36,102 nucleotides of DNA from Phycisphaerae bacterium (lineage in GTDB: Bacteria; Planctomycetota; Phycisphaerae; UBA1845). The DNA is taken from contig JAJDDX010000477.1 in assembly GCA_029260055.1 (NCBI GenBank), positions 1 to 36,102 of the forward strand, read 5' to 3'. A program made the translations under genes and the position numbers. The notes beneath the pieces are model-generated. The model had not been told where the DNA came from. It searched no databases and was given only the letters and a program-made list of their open reading frames with translations. Of the stretch, positions 6,482 to 32,909 are shown one piece after another. Position 1 is the first letter of the stretch. Each line of letters starts with the position of its first letter.

Positions 6482-7546
6482 ATGAAGGGTAAGGCAATCA
6501 TACCGTTGGCACTCGGCCTGTGTATCGGGCTCGTCGCGGTCAAGTTCGGCGTGGACGCGATTAGAAAGGCGAGAGGAGAGGTTCAGGTCCAGACGACCAT
6601 CGAAGTTGTCGCCGCAAAGGTCGACATCGGTGCCTACCAGATCATCACACCGGAAATGGTGGACCTGATCGAGACGCCGGACTCGCCACTCGTGCCGGCC
6701 GCGGAACGGTTCACGTCGCTCGAGGATCTGACCGGACGGGTCACCGCCAAGGCGATCCCGCAGTTCTCTCCGGTCCTGGCGACGATGCTGGCACCACCCG
6801 GCACGCCCGGGGGTATGGTCGGCCGCATTCCGGACGGATACCGGGCGGTGTCGGTGAAGATCGACGAGGTCACCGGTGTGGCCTATCAGATCAATCCGGG
6901 CGACTGGGTCGACGTCATTGTCGTGATGGACGTGCAGCAGGGCGGTCGCGGCTCCAAGAAGCAGACGATCGCGGAAGTGATCCTCCAGAACGTACAGGTT
7001 GCCGCGATCGGGCAGGAGACCACGGGGCAACAGCAGACCGGCGGCGCGGCGAAGGTCAAGCCGGCCCGGTCCGCCACGCTGTTCGTGACGGATAGGGAAG
7101 CGCCGAAGCTGCACCTGGCGGCCACGCGGGGCAAAATCACGCTGGCGATGCGCGGTGACGAAGACAGATCGAAGTCCGCATCGCCGATCATGATGACCGA
7201 CGCACAGGCGTTCGAGTCGATCCATGGCGAACCGGAACCCGAGCCCGCGCCGGCGCCGGCGCCGGTCAAACACGCCGCGCCCCAAACCGAGGTGGAACCG
7301 GAACCCGAGCCGCACAGCGTCGTTGTGCATCGCGGCTCGACGGTGTCGAACGTTGCGTCGGCTATCGAACGGATCACATTCGAGAACGCGGATTCCTCCA
7401 ACGTCATCGGCGTCAGGGACGGGGTCGCTGGCGGGGCCGATGGTATTTTCAAGGCCAAGCAGCCCAAGCGCCTCCCGAGGTTCGAGCCTCCGCCGAGGGA
7501 CGATGACTACGGGACGGACGCGGACTCAGACATGGATATGGAGTAA
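6482..7546 (+). CDS. cpaB: Flp pilus assembly protein CpaB/RcpC
   Basis: A 354-residue protein with an N-terminal membrane anchor (about residues 4-22). A SAF domain follows at about 42-107 (DIGAYQIITPEMVDL to LTGRVTAKAIPQFSPVL), then an RcpC/CpaB domain to about 245 (MVGRIPDGYRAVSVKIDEV, INPGDWVDVIVVMD). Family members sit in the periplasm, partner the secretin and may contact peptidoglycan. Beyond the family core is a Glu-Pro/Ala-Pro linker (PEPEPAPAPAP, and later EPEPEP) and an acidic tail ending DADSDMDME, both unusual. The start is ATG 6482. It lies 14 bases upstream of the secretin gene. Confidence 0.88.
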   Translation: MKGKAIIPLALGLCIGLVAVKFGVDAIRKARGEVQVQTTIEVVAAKVDIGAYQIITPEMVDLIETPDSPLVPAAERFTSLEDLTGRVTAKAIPQFSPVLATMLAPPGTPGGMVGRIPDGYRAVSVKIDEVTGVAYQINPGDWVDVIVVMDVQQGGRGSKKQTIAEVILQNVQVAAIGQETTGQQQTGGAAKVKPARSATLFVTDREAPKLHLAATRGKITLAMRGDEDRSKSASPIMMTDAQAFESIHGEPEPEPAPAPAPVKHAAPQTEVEPEPEPHSVVVHRGSTVSNVASAIERITFENADSSNVIGVRDGVAGGADGIFKAKQPKRLPRFEPPPRDDDYGTDADSDMDME

Positions 7547-7560
7547 GGAGACCCACTACG

Positions 7561-9138
7561 ATGTTAACGAAAGTCAAGGATGACCGCCGCGGTTCGAGTC
7601 GGCTAATCACATTGCCGTTGATCGCCGTATTCGCCGTGTTTTCGTCCGTCGCGGCCGCGCAGACCGGCGCATCGGACACGCCGTTCAGCGCGAAAGTGTT
7701 GGACCTGTCGGACAGCACCACGCGCATCATGGTCCCGGTGGATCGTAGCGTCACGGTCGAGACGACCGTCGAGACGACGCGCGCCGACGTGATCGCCACG
7801 CACATCGTGGATGTGCAGGTGCTTTCTCCGACGCGCATCCTCCTCACCGGGCAACGCTACGGCAGCACGAGCATTGTGCTCATGGGGCCTGCCAACAAGC
7901 AGTATGTGTTCAATGTGGACGTGGAATTGGACCTAGAGCAGCTCAACAACACGCTCGCGACGCTCGACCCGCTCGGCCATGTCGAGGCGGTGTCCGTCCG
8001 CGGACACATCATCCTCTCCGGCACGGTCAGCAGTGCCGCACGGGCCGAGAAGATGGTCGAGCTGTCCACTTTGTTCCTGCCTACTTCCGACACCGGCGAG
8101 CCGGCGACAGGCGTCCAGAACCACATCGAGGTGGCCGGTGAGCAACAGGTTCTCATCCGCTGCCTGGTGGCGGAGATGAGCCGTACGGCCCTGCGACAAC
8201 TGAGCATCAACGGCTTCTTAGCCGGCGACAACTTCAAGGACGCGTTCTTCGTCAACCAGCTCGGTGGGGTCAACCCGATCAACATCGGCACCGCCGCCGA
8301 CGCGCTGGTGTCTGCGAACATGCCGTTTCTGACCGGGACCGAGGGTATCCCGCTCGGTCAGGCGTCGACGCTGTCAGCCGGGTTCCCCCGCGTACAGATG
8401 CAGCTCTTCCTCAAAGCGATGGCTGAGAACTCACTGCTCAGCATCCTTGCCGAGCCGAACCTGACCGCGATCAGCGGCGAGACGGCGACGTTCCTCGCCG
8501 GTGGTGAGTTCCCGGTTCCGGTGCCCCAGGGCAATCAGACCGTCACCATCGAATTCAAGAACTTCGGCGTGGAGCTGAACTTCACACCCGTCGTCAAGGG
8601 CGGGGAGATCATTCGCCTGCGCGTCCACCCGTCGGTCTCCGAGCTCGACTTCTCGACGGCTGTGCAACTCGAAGGTTTCGTGATTCCGGGTCTGACCTCG
8701 CGCACGACGGAAACGACGGTCGAACTGGGTAGCGGTCAGACGATCGCCATCGGCGGGCTCTTGAACGAACAAGTGCGTGGCATCGCGAGCCGCATTCCCG
8801 CGATCGGTGACGTGCCGGTGCTCGGGGCACTCTTCAGGAGCGTGGACTTCCAGCGCTCGCTGACGGAACTGGTGATCCTCGTGACGCCGGAAATCGTCGC
8901 GCCGCTGCACACACAACAGATTGCGCGTCTGCCCTTTGATGGGCGGACCGACCCGAGTGACTTCGAGCTCTACGGGCTCGGGTTGCTCGAAGGTTTGAAC
9001 TGCGAAGAAAATCAGGACCAGCCGGGCTGCGGTGAGCCGGATGGTGCTGTCGACGAACCTCCCGCATTAGGATCACAGCCTCAAGAGGCTTCGATCCACG
9101 GCCCGTGGGGGCTGGAGGGAATCGTCGAAGCGCGGTGA
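7561..9138 (+). CDS. cpaC: Tad outer-membrane secretin CpaC/RcpA
   Basis: A 525-residue outer-membrane channel through which the Flp pilus passes. A signal peptide ends near SSVAAAQ (about residue 34). The N-terminal pilus-secretin domain (about 45-120) has the characteristic VTVETTVE and ILLTGQRYGSTSIVL strands. A BON-like region lies at about 125-190 and the secretin domain at about 195-455, with EPNLTAISGETATFLAGGEF, IAIGGLL, GDVPVLGALFRS and LTELVILVTPEIV. The Cys- and Pro-containing tail of about 60 residues has no obvious function. No RcpB or TadD-type pilotin gene is seen nearby. Confidence 0.95.
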   Translation: MLTKVKDDRRGSSRLITLPLIAVFAVFSSVAAAQTGASDTPFSAKVLDLSDSTTRIMVPVDRSVTVETTVETTRADVIATHIVDVQVLSPTRILLTGQRYGSTSIVLMGPANKQYVFNVDVELDLEQLNNTLATLDPLGHVEAVSVRGHIILSGTVSSAARAEKMVELSTLFLPTSDTGEPATGVQNHIEVAGEQQVLIRCLVAEMSRTALRQLSINGFLAGDNFKDAFFVNQLGGVNPINIGTAADALVSANMPFLTGTEGIPLGQASTLSAGFPRVQMQLFLKAMAENSLLSILAEPNLTAISGETATFLAGGEFPVPVPQGNQTVTIEFKNFGVELNFTPVVKGGEIIRLRVHPSVSELDFSTAVQLEGFVIPGLTSRTTETTVELGSGQTIAIGGLLNEQVRGIASRIPAIGDVPVLGALFRSVDFQRSLTELVILVTPEIVAPLHTQQIARLPFDGRTDPSDFELYGLGLLEGLNCEENQDQPGCGEPDGAVDEPPALGSQPQEASIHGPWGLEGIVEAR

Positions 9139-29774: not shown

Positions 29775-30092
29775 CTACAGTTCGATCTTCTCGACGCGGA
29801 TCTGCAGGTGCTTTTGGCGATGGCCCTTGCGGAGGCGGTAGCCCTTCCGGCGGCGGATCTTCTGGATGATGATCTTGTCGGCCTTGATTTCGCCGAGGAT
29901 CGTGGCTGAGACCTTGGCACCCTCGACGACCGGCTGGCCGACCTTGGGCCCGTCCACCAGGTCGCCTACGAAGAGGATGCGATCGAATTCAACCGTCTTG
30001 GCGTCTTCGGGCAGGTCCTTTCGCTGGACCTCGAGGGTCTGGCCTTCCTCGACTCGGTACTGATGAGCGCCGTCACTGATGATTGCGTACAC
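29775..30092 (-). CDS. rplU: 50S ribosomal protein bL21
   Basis: A 105-residue ribosomal protein of the large subunit that binds 23S rRNA. The start is GTG 30092 (VYAIISDGAHQYRVEEGQTL), with GGAG 10 bases upstream, and the start matches where other L21 proteins begin. The open frame continues to 30158, but that extension has no family counterpart. The C-terminal signature KIRRRKGYRLRKGHRQ is intact. Usually rpmA (bL27) follows directly; here only about 118 bases separate the stop from a convergent gene, so rpmA must be elsewhere. Confidence 0.96.
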   Translation of the reverse strand: MYAIISDGAHQYRVEEGQTLEVQRKDLPEDAKTVEFDRILFVGDLVDGPKVGQPVVEGAKVSATILGEIKADKIIIQKIRRRKGYRLRKGHRQKHLQIRVEKIEL

Positions 30093-30211
30093 TTTGGTGT
30101 TCTCCAACGCCGCTAGCGGTCGTGATCGCAAGGTTACGGGCGTTGCCGCCGGCCCCATGCCGGAGGCCGCTCAGGCCCGATCCCACCGGCTCCAGAAAAG
30201 CCGAGCCGGGT

Positions 30212-30240
30212 AATCTGGCGGATTCCGCCGGGAAAGTCAA
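30212..30240 (-). promoter_or_regulatory. Promoter and leader of rplU
   Basis: On the minus strand, TTGACT (30235-30240), 17 bases and CAGATT (30212-30217) form a plausible sigma-70-type promoter. The transcript would have a leader of about 110 bases that contains GC-rich inverted repeats (for example CCGGC and GCCGG near 30150-30168). Such leaders can carry r-protein feedback sites. The promoter call is moderate and the regulatory role is speculative. Confidence 0.5.
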
Positions 30241-30519
30241 GCCCGGCGAGCGGCACAAGCGCTGGCAGGTGACGAATGTGTAGGGCGCGAGGGGCGTTTT
30301 TTCTCGGAGCGATTGTTACAGGCGCGGCGCTACCGAATGCGGCTGCGGGTTGACAAGTGCCGATAAACTCAGAGGATACGTCCGTTCAACATGTTACGTC
30401 ACAGGCGGGCGTACCCGTAACTCTTGTTTTGACAAGAGGATAGCGCGAAGTTAGAATGAAGATAGCTAAGCGTCATGTCCGGAACTAGCTTGCGCGTTGG
30501 GAAGCTAGGAGGCGGGTCA
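30241..30519. other. Upstream region of the unknown/HEPN pair
   Basis: No gene. A T6 run at about 30298-30303 and a TTGACA hexamer (30350-30355) are present, with AGGATA 17 bases later as a weak -10 candidate. Downstream DNA looks less GC-rich than the neighbourhood by eye. Confidence 0.4.
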
Positions 30520-30996
30520 ATGTCAGAAACGAAAGCCAAACGCGACCTGATTCAAATCAAAGCTGGCGAGGATGGGGACCGACAGGTCCTGATCCACCCG
30601 GCGGATGATGACCTTTTCGTGCGCACCGGCAAGGAGGTCATCAACGCGTGCCAACTCGACATAAGCATCGAGCTTTGGATGCGGGAGTTCGAATCAGCGA
30701 TGGAGTCTGTCCAGCAGTGGTCGGACGAGCGCGATGCGCAGGTAGCTTCGTGCCATTGCAGCCCCCAGGGCGGGAAAATCGCCTTTTTCTTTTGCCCCAC
30801 ATCCGACAAGTTCGACTTTGCTCTCGCCGATGACCTGGCTCAACTGAACCTTGACCTACGGCAAACGTTCAACATCGGGATGGTTGAGGTGCAGCAGATA
30901 CCTTGGGCGGAAACAGGAAGGTTCTTGCATCCTGGGATGGCGAGATGGGTCTATGGAAGGAAGCTCAAGCGCACATCGACGTCAGTGGAAGCATAA
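30520..30996 (+). CDS. Unknown protein, first gene of a HEPN-linked pair
   Basis: A 158-residue soluble protein that I do not recognise. ATG 30520 is well supported by AGGAGGCGGG just upstream; an upstream ATG at 30475 lacks such a site. The protein has no signal peptide or membrane helix. Visible features are a CHC cluster (residues 78-80) with a further C92 (FFFCPTSDKF), and an acidic, hydrophobic middle (FALADDLAQLNLDLRQ). Its 3' end overlaps the HEPN-like gene by 44 bases in another frame, so the two are probably made together. A regulatory or antidote role for the HEPN partner is a guess from the arrangement. Confidence 0.65.
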   Translation: MSETKAKRDLIQIKAGEDGDRQVLIHPADDDLFVRTGKEVINACQLDISIELWMREFESAMESVQQWSDERDAQVASCHCSPQGGKIAFFFCPTSDKFDFALADDLAQLNLDLRQTFNIGMVEVQQIPWAETGRFLHPGMARWVYGRKLKRTSTSVEA

Positions 30997-31414
30997 TCGC
31001 GGCTTCCTCGGTTCAATCCCGGCGGACTATCCAGATTGGATCGTTACCGTTGCCTTCTACACGGCGCTGCATGCCGTGGACACCCTGTTGGCAGCGGACA
31101 AAGTCAGTTCTGTCATCTCCCACGGGACCAGAAACGCGGTCCTGATGAACACCAATCGGTACAAGAGCATCTACTCGGCCTACCATCCCTTGTACGGGCT
31201 GTCGCGGACCGTCCGCTATTTGGCGGACCCGGCAAAGTGGGTCTCCGTGGAGGACATCGAGCGACATGTTCTTAAGGGCCATCTCTATCGGATCGAGCGA
31301 TCGGTCTTGAAACTCCTTGATGATGGCACAACCCTCGACGCTATTGCGATTGCACCCAAGACGGCCGAAACGCAAGCCGAGTCGACATCCCCCGCATCGC
31401 CGACCGCACGCTGA
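30953..31414 (+). CDS. HEPN-like protein
   Basis: A protein of about 153 residues if it starts at ATG 30953; the frame is open back to 30851. The core (WKHNRGFLGSIPADYPDWIV, then AFYTALHAVDTLLA, SHGTRNAVLM, YHPLYGLSRTVRYL) matches the helical HEPN fold, whose members often bind nucleotides or cleave RNA. A possible R-x5-H motif sits at R104-H110 (RHVLKGH), within the HEPN R-x4-6-H range. The N-terminus is uncertain: another frame reads MGLWKEAQAHID, which looks like the natural HEPN start, so a frameshift or sequencing error near 30980 is possible. The tail is Thr/Ser/Ala-rich and probably disordered. Confidence 0.65.
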   Translation: MEGSSSAHRRQWKHNRGFLGSIPADYPDWIVTVAFYTALHAVDTLLAADKVSSVISHGTRNAVLMNTNRYKSIYSAYHPLYGLSRTVRYLADPAKWVSVEDIERHVLKGHLYRIERSVLKLLDDGTTLDAIAIAPKTAETQAESTSPASPTAR

Positions 31415-31777
31415 GTGATCGGACAGCCGAGGTTGCAGGGGACTGCGTTCGGGAAGAGCGGCCTGCCGCTCTTGACTTGTGCCCTCCTGTGACTTACCTT
31501 CCGCGACTCGGCTGAGGTCGCAATAGCGGCTCCCAGCCGTGAAAGCCCGGAATCTCCGGGGCATCCTTGCCTCAAAGGGCGGTCAGGCTGCGAGGGATCG
31601 CAGGCGGGTCGGACCGGCAGGGAGTGGGCGCTTCTCTTCGCGGCGGAGCGCTTAGGCCTCGATTTCGGGCCTTCAGCCGCGTCCTTCCAGAAGATCTCCG
31701 CGGTCTTGCAGGACGAGGGCGGCCGCGGCTTGTCGTCACGGGTGTCGTCCGGGGCGCCAGCGCGATAGCCGGTTGAT
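31415..31777. other. Spacer upstream of tRNA-Gln
   Basis: No convincing gene. A 69-codon Arg-rich frame (31567-31776) has no homology I recognise. No repeat of the tRNA 3' end is visible on the far side of the HEPN module, so there is no attachment-site evidence for an integrated element. Confidence 0.4.
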
Positions 31778-31849
31778 AACCCGGTGGTGTAATCGGTAAC
31801 ACACCAGGTTTTGGTCCTGGCGTTTCAGGTTCGAGTCCTGGCCGGGTTG
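31778..31849 (+). tRNA. tRNA-Gln (anticodon TTG)
   Basis: All arms fold. The acceptor is AACCCGG (31778-31784) with CCGGGTT (31842-31848) and discriminator G. The D arm is GTGT/ACAC, the anticodon stem CCAGG/CCTGG with loop TTTTGGT and anticodon TTG at 31811-31813, and the T arm TCAGG-TTCGAGT-CCTGG. The anticodon reads CAA, hence glutamine. CCA is not encoded. Confidence 0.95.
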
Positions 31850-31867
31850 TTGCGGTGAATGACCACG

Positions 31868-31888
31868 GAGCGGTCTTGGCGACCGCTC
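31868..31888 (+). other. Hairpin between tRNA-Gln and the glmU-type gene
   Basis: GAGCGGTC (31868-31875), TTGGC, GACCGCTC (31881-31888) forms a perfect 8-bp stem about 20 bases after the tRNA. No T tract follows. It may aid 3' processing or partial termination of the tRNA transcript. Confidence 0.4.
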
Positions 31889-31934
31889 GGCGGGCTCTTC
31901 GGACCCGATACCACAGCTTGCGAGGATCACCGCG

Positions 31935-32909
31935 TTGGCGGAGACGGCTGCGATCATTCTGGCGGCGGGCAAGAGCACTCGGATGCGCTCCGATCTGCCG
32001 AAGGTGCTGCACGAGATTTGCGGGCGTCCGATGCTGGGTTACGTGCTCAGTGCGTGCCGTCTGGCTTGTGTGGACCGCATCATCGCCGTGGTGGGTCACG
32101 GGAAGGACCAGGTGATCGATCGGTTCAGTGCCGACCTGGACGTGACTTGGGTCGAGCAGGTCGAGCAGAACGGCACCGGCCATGCGGTACAGGTGTGCCG
32201 CGATGCCCTGGAAGGCTTTGACGGCAGCGTACTGGTCGTCGCCGGGGATATGCCGCTGCTGCGTCGTGAGACGGTGATCGAGCTACTCGAGTCTCGCGAG
32301 GAATCGGGTGACGCCTTGGCGCTTGCCACGACGGTTCTGGACGATCCGACGGGATACGGGCGGATCATTCGAGACGGTGACGGGAAGCTCGAAGCGATCG
32401 TCGAGCACCGGGATTGCTCGAAGGAGCAGCGCGAGGTTTTCGAGGTCAACCCGAGCTACTACTGCTTTGATGCTCGGCGACTGTTCGGCACGCTGGATGA
32501 GATCAAGCCCTCGGCGGACACCGGCGAGGTCTATCTGACCGACGCGGTCAAAGCTCTGCGGGACGGTGGCGAGGGTGTTTCGGCCGTTACGAGCGTGCCG
32601 GCTGAGGACGCGATGGGTATCAATACGCGGCTCGATCTGGCGAGGGCCGCTCGTGCCATGGAAGATAGAATTCAGCTTCGGCTGATGAATGAAGGCGTGA
32701 CGATCGTCGATCCGGACAATACCTGGATCGAGGCGGACGTGTCGATCGGGCGTGACTCGGTCGTCTATCCGTTCAGTTTCGTCGGCGTCGGGGCGACGAT
32801 CGGAGAGGGTTGTCGCGTAGGTCCGTACGCCTGCGTGGAGGCGGGCGAGGTCGTGGATGACGGCACTGCGGTCAAGCAGACGGCGTTTCAAGGAGTTGGC
32901 GCGTCATGA
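31935..32909 (+). CDS. glmU: GlmU-type N-acetylglucosamine-1-phosphate uridyltransferase, short form
   Basis: A 324-residue protein that should make UDP-GlcNAc for peptidoglycan and lipid A. The nucleotidyltransferase domain is complete: IILAAGKSTRMRSDLPKVLH, EQNGTGHAV, VVAGDMPLL, GYGRIIRDGDGKLEAIVEHR and TGEVYLTDAV. The C-terminal left-handed beta-helix is a stub of about 75 residues (NTWIEADVSIGRDSVVYPFS, IGEGCRVGPYACVEAG), whereas bifunctional GlmU runs to about 456. The acetyltransferase half is therefore missing and GlcN-1-P acetylation must come from elsewhere. The start is TTG 31935 with GAGG about 9 bases upstream. It overlaps prs by ATGA. Confidence 0.88.
   Translation: MAETAAIILAAGKSTRMRSDLPKVLHEICGRPMLGYVLSACRLACVDRIIAVVGHGKDQVIDRFSADLDVTWVEQVEQNGTGHAVQVCRDALEGFDGSVLVVAGDMPLLRRETVIELLESREESGDALALATTVLDDPTGYGRIIRDGDGKLEAIVEHRDCSKEQREVFEVNPSYYCFDARRLFGTLDEIKPSADTGEVYLTDAVKALRDGGEGVSAVTSVPAEDAMGINTRLDLARAARAMEDRIQLRLMNEGVTIVDPDNTWIEADVSIGRDSVVYPFSFVGVGATIGEGCRVGPYACVEAGEVVDDGTAVKQTAFQGVGAS

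Follow-up and report, generated by a model that had tools for sequence, protein, structure and literature searches.

Several described systems resemble, in part, the gene pair analysed here. In type VII toxin-antitoxin systems (HEPN/MNT, or HepT/MntA; PMC7641770, PMC11586414), a small alpha/beta protein is encoded 5′ of a small HEPN protein, and the GSX10DXD motif of HepT/MntA is required for adenylylation, its loss lowering neutralisation (PMC7641770). In the AF0298-like and AbiV HEPN proteins, the arginine at the end of helix 3 is kept and the usual histidine is missing, with a conserved histidine placed in an insert between helices 2 and 3; that this alternative-histidine arrangement is a working RNase site is the proposal of the authors (PMC3710099). 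In Staphylococcus prophages, Tha/Ith is an established case of HEPN-based defence accompanied by a small inhibitor (PMC11087260). In addition, a 2024 study (PMC11437467) proposes that the HEPN protein of Thermus phage Tsatsa serves as effector in a defence system that operates during lysogeny, and proposes defence cargo for the site beside the phage integrase.

The pair described here lies in a 36,102-nucleotide stretch of a Phycisphaerae genome (assembly GCA_029260055.1, contig JAJDDX010000477.1), referred to as the window. Two co-directional genes, ORF1 and a downstream HEPN gene, overlap exactly as the original prediction described (Table 1). The reading that we favour, to which we would give about an even chance, is that they form a mobile two-gene toxin-antitoxin-like or abortive-defence module composed of a HEPN effector and a 5′ inhibitor that work by the mechanism set out further below, with ORF1 probably acting as a non-enzymatic 5′ inhibitor or sensor.

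Table 1. Features of the gene pair and its immediate surroundings, in window coordinates
Feature	Position	Strand	Basis or remark
Sigma-70-like promoter candidate, TTGACA-17-TAGAAT	30429..30457	+	11/12 consensus match; consensus match only
Shine-Dalgarno AGGAGG of ORF1	30507..30512	+	Direct reading; 7 nt ahead of ATG 30520
ORF1, 5′ partner, unnamed family	30520..30996	+	158 aa, ATG start
Predicted C-terminal core of ORF1, residues 50-146	30667..30957	+	AlphaFold2 model, fold matches
Two-gene overlap, 44 bases	30953..30996	+	Read from sequence
HEPN-fold protein (predicted), probable effector	30953..31414	+	153 aa, ATG start; AlphaFold2 and fold match
Codons of invariant H57 to R60, HEPN gene	31121..31132	+	33/33; between helix 2 and long helix 3
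Codons of invariant R88-Y89, HEPN gene	31214..31219	+	33/33; end of long helix 3 (helix 68-90)
tRNA-Gln(ttg), first of the conserved tRNA-Gln-glmU-prs block	31777..31850	+	Context, outside the module

The start assigned to the HEPN gene is supported by homologues that have H8 and N15 in common near their own starts. The promoter candidate is the sole one found within 30150-31800, where shuffled sequence averages 0.4. The patch was expected to be less GC-rich than its surroundings, and this is the case: positions 30520-31414 have a GC content of 57.0% compared to a mean of 63.3% (sd 2.0) for 895-nt windows over the 36-kb window, and only 7 of 705 such windows are as GC-poor. The GC3 values of the two genes (0.68 and 0.69) fall below those of most other window genes (0.72-0.85) but not below all of them, a few reaching down to 0.54.

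A tRNA gene had also been noted downstream, and the tRNA-Gln(ttg) begins 362 bases beyond the HEPN stop codon. About 24 further genomes of the same family share the block that it opens, and in all of them the pair is missing from the stretch ahead of the tRNA, roughly 1.1-1.4 kb. Either the pair was inserted in this lineage specifically, or it was retained here and lost elsewhere. The suggestion of an acquired patch stands as far as this lineage-specific position goes, but no sign of integration at the tRNA was seen: the pair is located 5′ to the tRNA, and 29900-32100 contains no direct repeats of at least 14 nt. Defining an empty site through rplU was rejected, since the neighbourhood of rplU is not conserved with glmU in relatives whereas the tRNA-Gln-glmU-prs side is. 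The rplU (bL21) gene itself, at 29775-30158 of the window, has no adjacent rpmA and is followed by a convergent 827-aa gene, an arrangement also present in G017 and G018. The glmU-like gene (31935-32909) encodes only 324 aa, with open frames of about 330 aa in relatives; most of the C-terminal acetyltransferase domain is therefore probably missing.

Judged by sequence searches, neither protein appears to belong to an established family in the libraries used (Pfam, NCBIfam, PADLOC and PHROGs). ORF1 and the HEPN protein had no match in Pfam, NCBIfam or PADLOC, and ORF1 had none in PHROGs either, in line with its earlier description as unrecognised. Homologues of both proteins gave weak scattered matches only against Pfam, PADLOC and PHROGs, and the Pfam model PF05168 (HEPN-T) did not match the HEPN protein. 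A weak PADLOC match to PD-Lambda-2_C (E 0.014) was below any reasonable threshold and was discarded. Sequence searches of solved structures (PDB) with either protein or its profile yielded nothing significant, and plasmid records contained no match to the window proteins or to the HEPN proteins of L023, L046, L061 and Tsatsa.

Of 60 near relatives, the own genome counted among them, 4 have a HEPN homologue; across the phylum, such homologues were detected in 12 of 392 genomes by single sequence (one of these, L020, spurious) and in 17 of 392 by profile. ORF1 homologues are present in 11 of the same 392 genomes, and by coordinates each of these 11 immediately precedes a HEPN copy of the same orientation. 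A scan of genome contigs yielded further loci from cultured and uncultured Planctomycetota, among the cultured ones Alienimonas chondri and Roseiconus nitratireducens (L031, L033), along with single ones from Chloroflexi and Poribacteria. With the exception of L019, profile searches detected ORF1 ahead of HEPN at all planctomycete HEPN loci collected to that stage. The gap between the genes ranges from -61 to +18 nt in 29 homologous pairs, 25 of which overlap. Distance matrices of the two families are correlated (Mantel r 0.73, 26 pairs; best of 20,000 permutations 0.52, p 5e-5), and the one close locus pair gives dN/dS values of about 0.15 for ORF1 and about 0.17 for the first 54 HEPN codons. 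The two families are one linked, overlapping and co-diverging genetic unit, and the functional link proposed in the original prediction is borne out by this constant adjacency and correlated divergence. As is general for two-gene toxin-antitoxin systems, the genes are small, co-directional and overlapping, and are inherited as a unit.

Divergent HEPN genes without a recognised ORF1 occur in 6 of the 17 genomes, plus as a second copy in a seventh (G225). Where the upstream sequence is readable, these genes again follow a small co-directional gene (that of G120 is not readable as a complete gene). Significant profile scores support homology of this partner to ORF1 only for L059, L066 and L040; the partners of L046/L048 and L019 show weak profile hints of the ORF1 core, and the other divergent partners have, by inspection alone, a shared helix-strand-strand-helix-strand look. 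In three draft loci (L016, L029 and L043), the HEPN gene is frameshifted or truncated next to an open ORF1, as is expected if HEPN is the harmful member, a reading that these broken genes fit, though L016 and L029 may be draft assembly errors. At L008, ORF1 is decayed and in pieces, without a clear HEPN gene.

Phage records contain relatives of the HEPN protein in one Thermus phage, Tsatsa (profile E 1.6e-14), and in two phages of Microcystis (1e-19). In these phages a small gene precedes HEPN and an integrase adjoins the other side, and in Tsatsa a LexA-like regulator flanks the block. Tsatsa_33 belongs to the same HEPN family by its profile match (E 1.6e-14) and has a small overlapping 5′ gene, but the sequence of this partner, Tsatsa_34, is not significantly similar to that of ORF1, and the sections of PMC11437467 considered here do not describe this gene as a conserved component. 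Phage-borne versions carry a further small gene (about 94-106 aa) ahead of the partner (L171:2302-2610, L046:3149-3430, L048:3193-3510), for which no match was found in Pfam (L046, L048) or PHROGs (Tsatsa) and which may be a third component. On L046, a viral contig of 27% GC, the divergent HEPN pair is flanked by NB-ARC/TPR (121-2733) and SEFIR/TIR (6524-8002) genes.

Around the other copies, neighbours are mixed and mostly ordinary genes, with no defence-island enrichment; among them are single RT, Cas1, portal and integrase matches and two HNH matches. Planctomycetota copies mostly neighbour housekeeping genes. In planctomycete genomes, third genes precede the partner and HEPN at L061:660-1064, where the gene is a DUF6941 gene (PF22091, E 4.2e-18), and at L062:2266-2667 and L064:1525-1920, where the genes are look-alikes.

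These surroundings bear on a reading that we regard as a serious though doubtful contender, in which ORF1 mainly serves as sensor or adaptor: by default HEPN would be quiescent, and ORF1 would activate it on meeting a phage component, like the prophage abortive system Tha, for which HEPN defence is established (PMC11087260). The divergent pairs located between a LexA-like regulator and an integrase (Tsatsa) or beside an integrase (Microcystis phage) are consistent with this, and the upstream parts differ among lineages as expected of a sensor, with extra domains in L042, L059 and L040, the DUF6941 gene in L061 and its counterparts in L062 and L064. However, antitoxin-toxin pairs have the same gene order and overlap, and most copies in Planctomycetota show no visible prophage around them. 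The resemblance to Tha/Ith (PMC11087260) is one of layout: a HEPN RNase in the lysogeny region of a temperate phage is accompanied by a small cognate inhibitor, but Tha, with its N-terminal region and canonical R265/H270, has about 300 aa, compared to 153 aa for the HEPN protein here, and Ith is antisense whereas ORF1 is a co-directional 5′ gene.

The HEPN-like core proposed for the second gene holds at the level of the fold. The AlphaFold2 model (pLDDT 93.7) has 2hsb (AF0298) as its top Foldseek match, and VIA-align superimposes 121 of its residues on 2hsb at 2.5 A with a Z of 14.5; sacsin HEPN and HepT toxins come next, and HEPN proteins make up most of the best-scoring VIA rows. A Z above about 13 is needed to stand out among helical bundles, and the value for 2hsb exceeds this. 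According to the model, the second protein has the four-helix HEPN fold. Comparison of its profile with those of HEPN genes adjoining MNTs in related genomes gave, from small sets, an hhalign P of 0.007 with 88 columns in register.

The conserved residues point away from the motif first suggested. An R-x5-H motif is present as R104..H110 but is not conserved, position 110 being histidine in only 4 of 33 homologues and arginine falling outside the six commonest residues at position 104, and it was rejected as the HEPN active site. Present in 33 of 33 sequences are W29, Y36, H57, R60, L80, R88 and Y89, all but L80 polar or aromatic. The canonical Rx4-6H at R88, with a histidine 5-7 residues after it, occurs in 2 of the 33, and the toxin motif RX4HXY is absent from the alignment of the family. 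In the model, H57 and R88 occupy the positions of the alternative AF0298/AbiV site, which the invariant residues fit, and this would be a working RNase site. The likeness to AF0298 (2hsb, PF05168) and AbiV comprises the best fold match and the histidine between helices 2 and 3 together with the arginine at the end of helix 3, the canonical histidine being absent. It contrasts with the lack of a Pfam match, an identity of about 12% to 2hsb, and the pairing with an unrelated 5′ gene.

The same residues weigh on the possibility, which we consider unlikely, that the pair is a regulator that binds RNA without being toxic, its HEPN domain being inactive and its partner regulatory, as has been proposed for MtlR. 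Scarcity of the canonical motif and the ordinary neighbourhoods would suit such a regulator, but invariance of H57, R60, R88 and Y89 is unexpected for a dead site, patchy spread (17 of 392 genomes) and differing locations indicate mobile cargo, and phage copies exist.

For ORF1, an MNT-like order of elements was guessed from the alignment ahead of the fold search. The model contains a core at residues 50-146 of helix, beta hairpin, helix, strand, helix and strand (pLDDT mostly 89-98). Its first six Foldseek rows hold MntA antitoxins and HI0073, the top one being MntA (E 0.017, TM by target 0.52). With VIA, two nucleotidyltransferases lead (2rff, Z 8.3; 1ylq, 7.8), effectively tied with KH-type ribosomal S3 (7.7) and MafI and CzrB (7.4); a search of the viral fold library with ORF1 was uninformative. 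The CHC cluster pointed out earlier is C78-H79-C80, but C-x-C occurs there in only 4 of 29 homologues, so the cluster is not a family feature and was dismissed as a family metal site.

That the pair is a divergent but working type VII system, with ORF1 AMPylating HEPN, is very improbable in our judgement, although the HEPN partner, the 5′ position of ORF1 and its best Foldseek matches are those of such a system. GSX10DXD, searched with a spacer of 9 to 11 residues, is missing in 29 of 29 ORF1 homologues and present in 26 of 26 MNT controls from related genomes, which had been picked by a looser form of the same motif, and the predicted hairpin of ORF1 (75-83/86-93) leaves no room for the motif loop. 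In addition, RX4HXY is lacking from the HEPN side. Profile comparison with the 26 MNTs was negative, by which ORF1 was rejected as a sequence-level MNT homologue; ORF1 had no match to PF01909 or MNT profiles, and no sequence-level link to any antitoxin was found. The pair resembles HEPN/MNT in its small 5′ alpha/beta partner, closest to MntA in predicted fold, and in its small HEPN protein, and differs in both motifs and in the sequence of ORF1. By the tests made, ORF1 falls outside the MNT enzymes, and it may act like an antitoxin. Finally, a chance adjacency or a spurious ORF, for which nothing speaks beyond the low copy number, is refuted already by co-occurrence in many genera, and with overlap, co-divergence and purifying selection also against it we regard its probability as negligible.

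Under the favoured reading of a toxin-antitoxin-like or abortive-defence module, HEPN would be an RNase effector that cuts RNA not through the canonical Rx4-6H but through an alternative site formed by H57 from the helix 2-3 insert and R88 at the end of helix 3. ORF1, made first, would bind the nascent HEPN protein and keep it inactive by contact instead of AMPylation, because it has no nucleotidyltransferase motif. Infection or stress would then free the effector and growth would stop. The antitoxin-first order, which is the same in HEPN/MNT systems (PMC3710099), the divergent relatives beside a phage integrase and the MntA antitoxins as best Foldseek matches of ORF1 support this module. Against it, the canonical motif is so rare (2/33) that the HEPN domain may be inactive, no clear defence island surrounds the Planctomycetota copies, and the broken HEPN genes may be sequencing errors in drafts.

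What is new is an unnamed conserved HEPN dyad, of which one distant phage member was known before as a HEPN effector candidate. More tentatively, and with considerable doubt, we propose that it is a third class of HEPN dyad, in which an alternative-site HEPN RNase is held in check by a partner that keeps the MNT fold but has lost its entire catalytic loop, and neutralisation has moved from AMPylation to binding or sensing; with exchangeable sensor parts upstream, this class would have spread among Planctomycetota, other bacteria and temperate phages. An unrecognised HEPN lineage gains a defined genetic partner and an active site, both of which can be tested. Searches for defence systems could find a module missed by Pfam, NCBIfam, PADLOC and PHROGs, including one proposed unpaired effector in Thermus prophages. 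If the partner is indeed a dead nucleotidyltransferase, the pair would show an enzymatic antitoxin turning structural.
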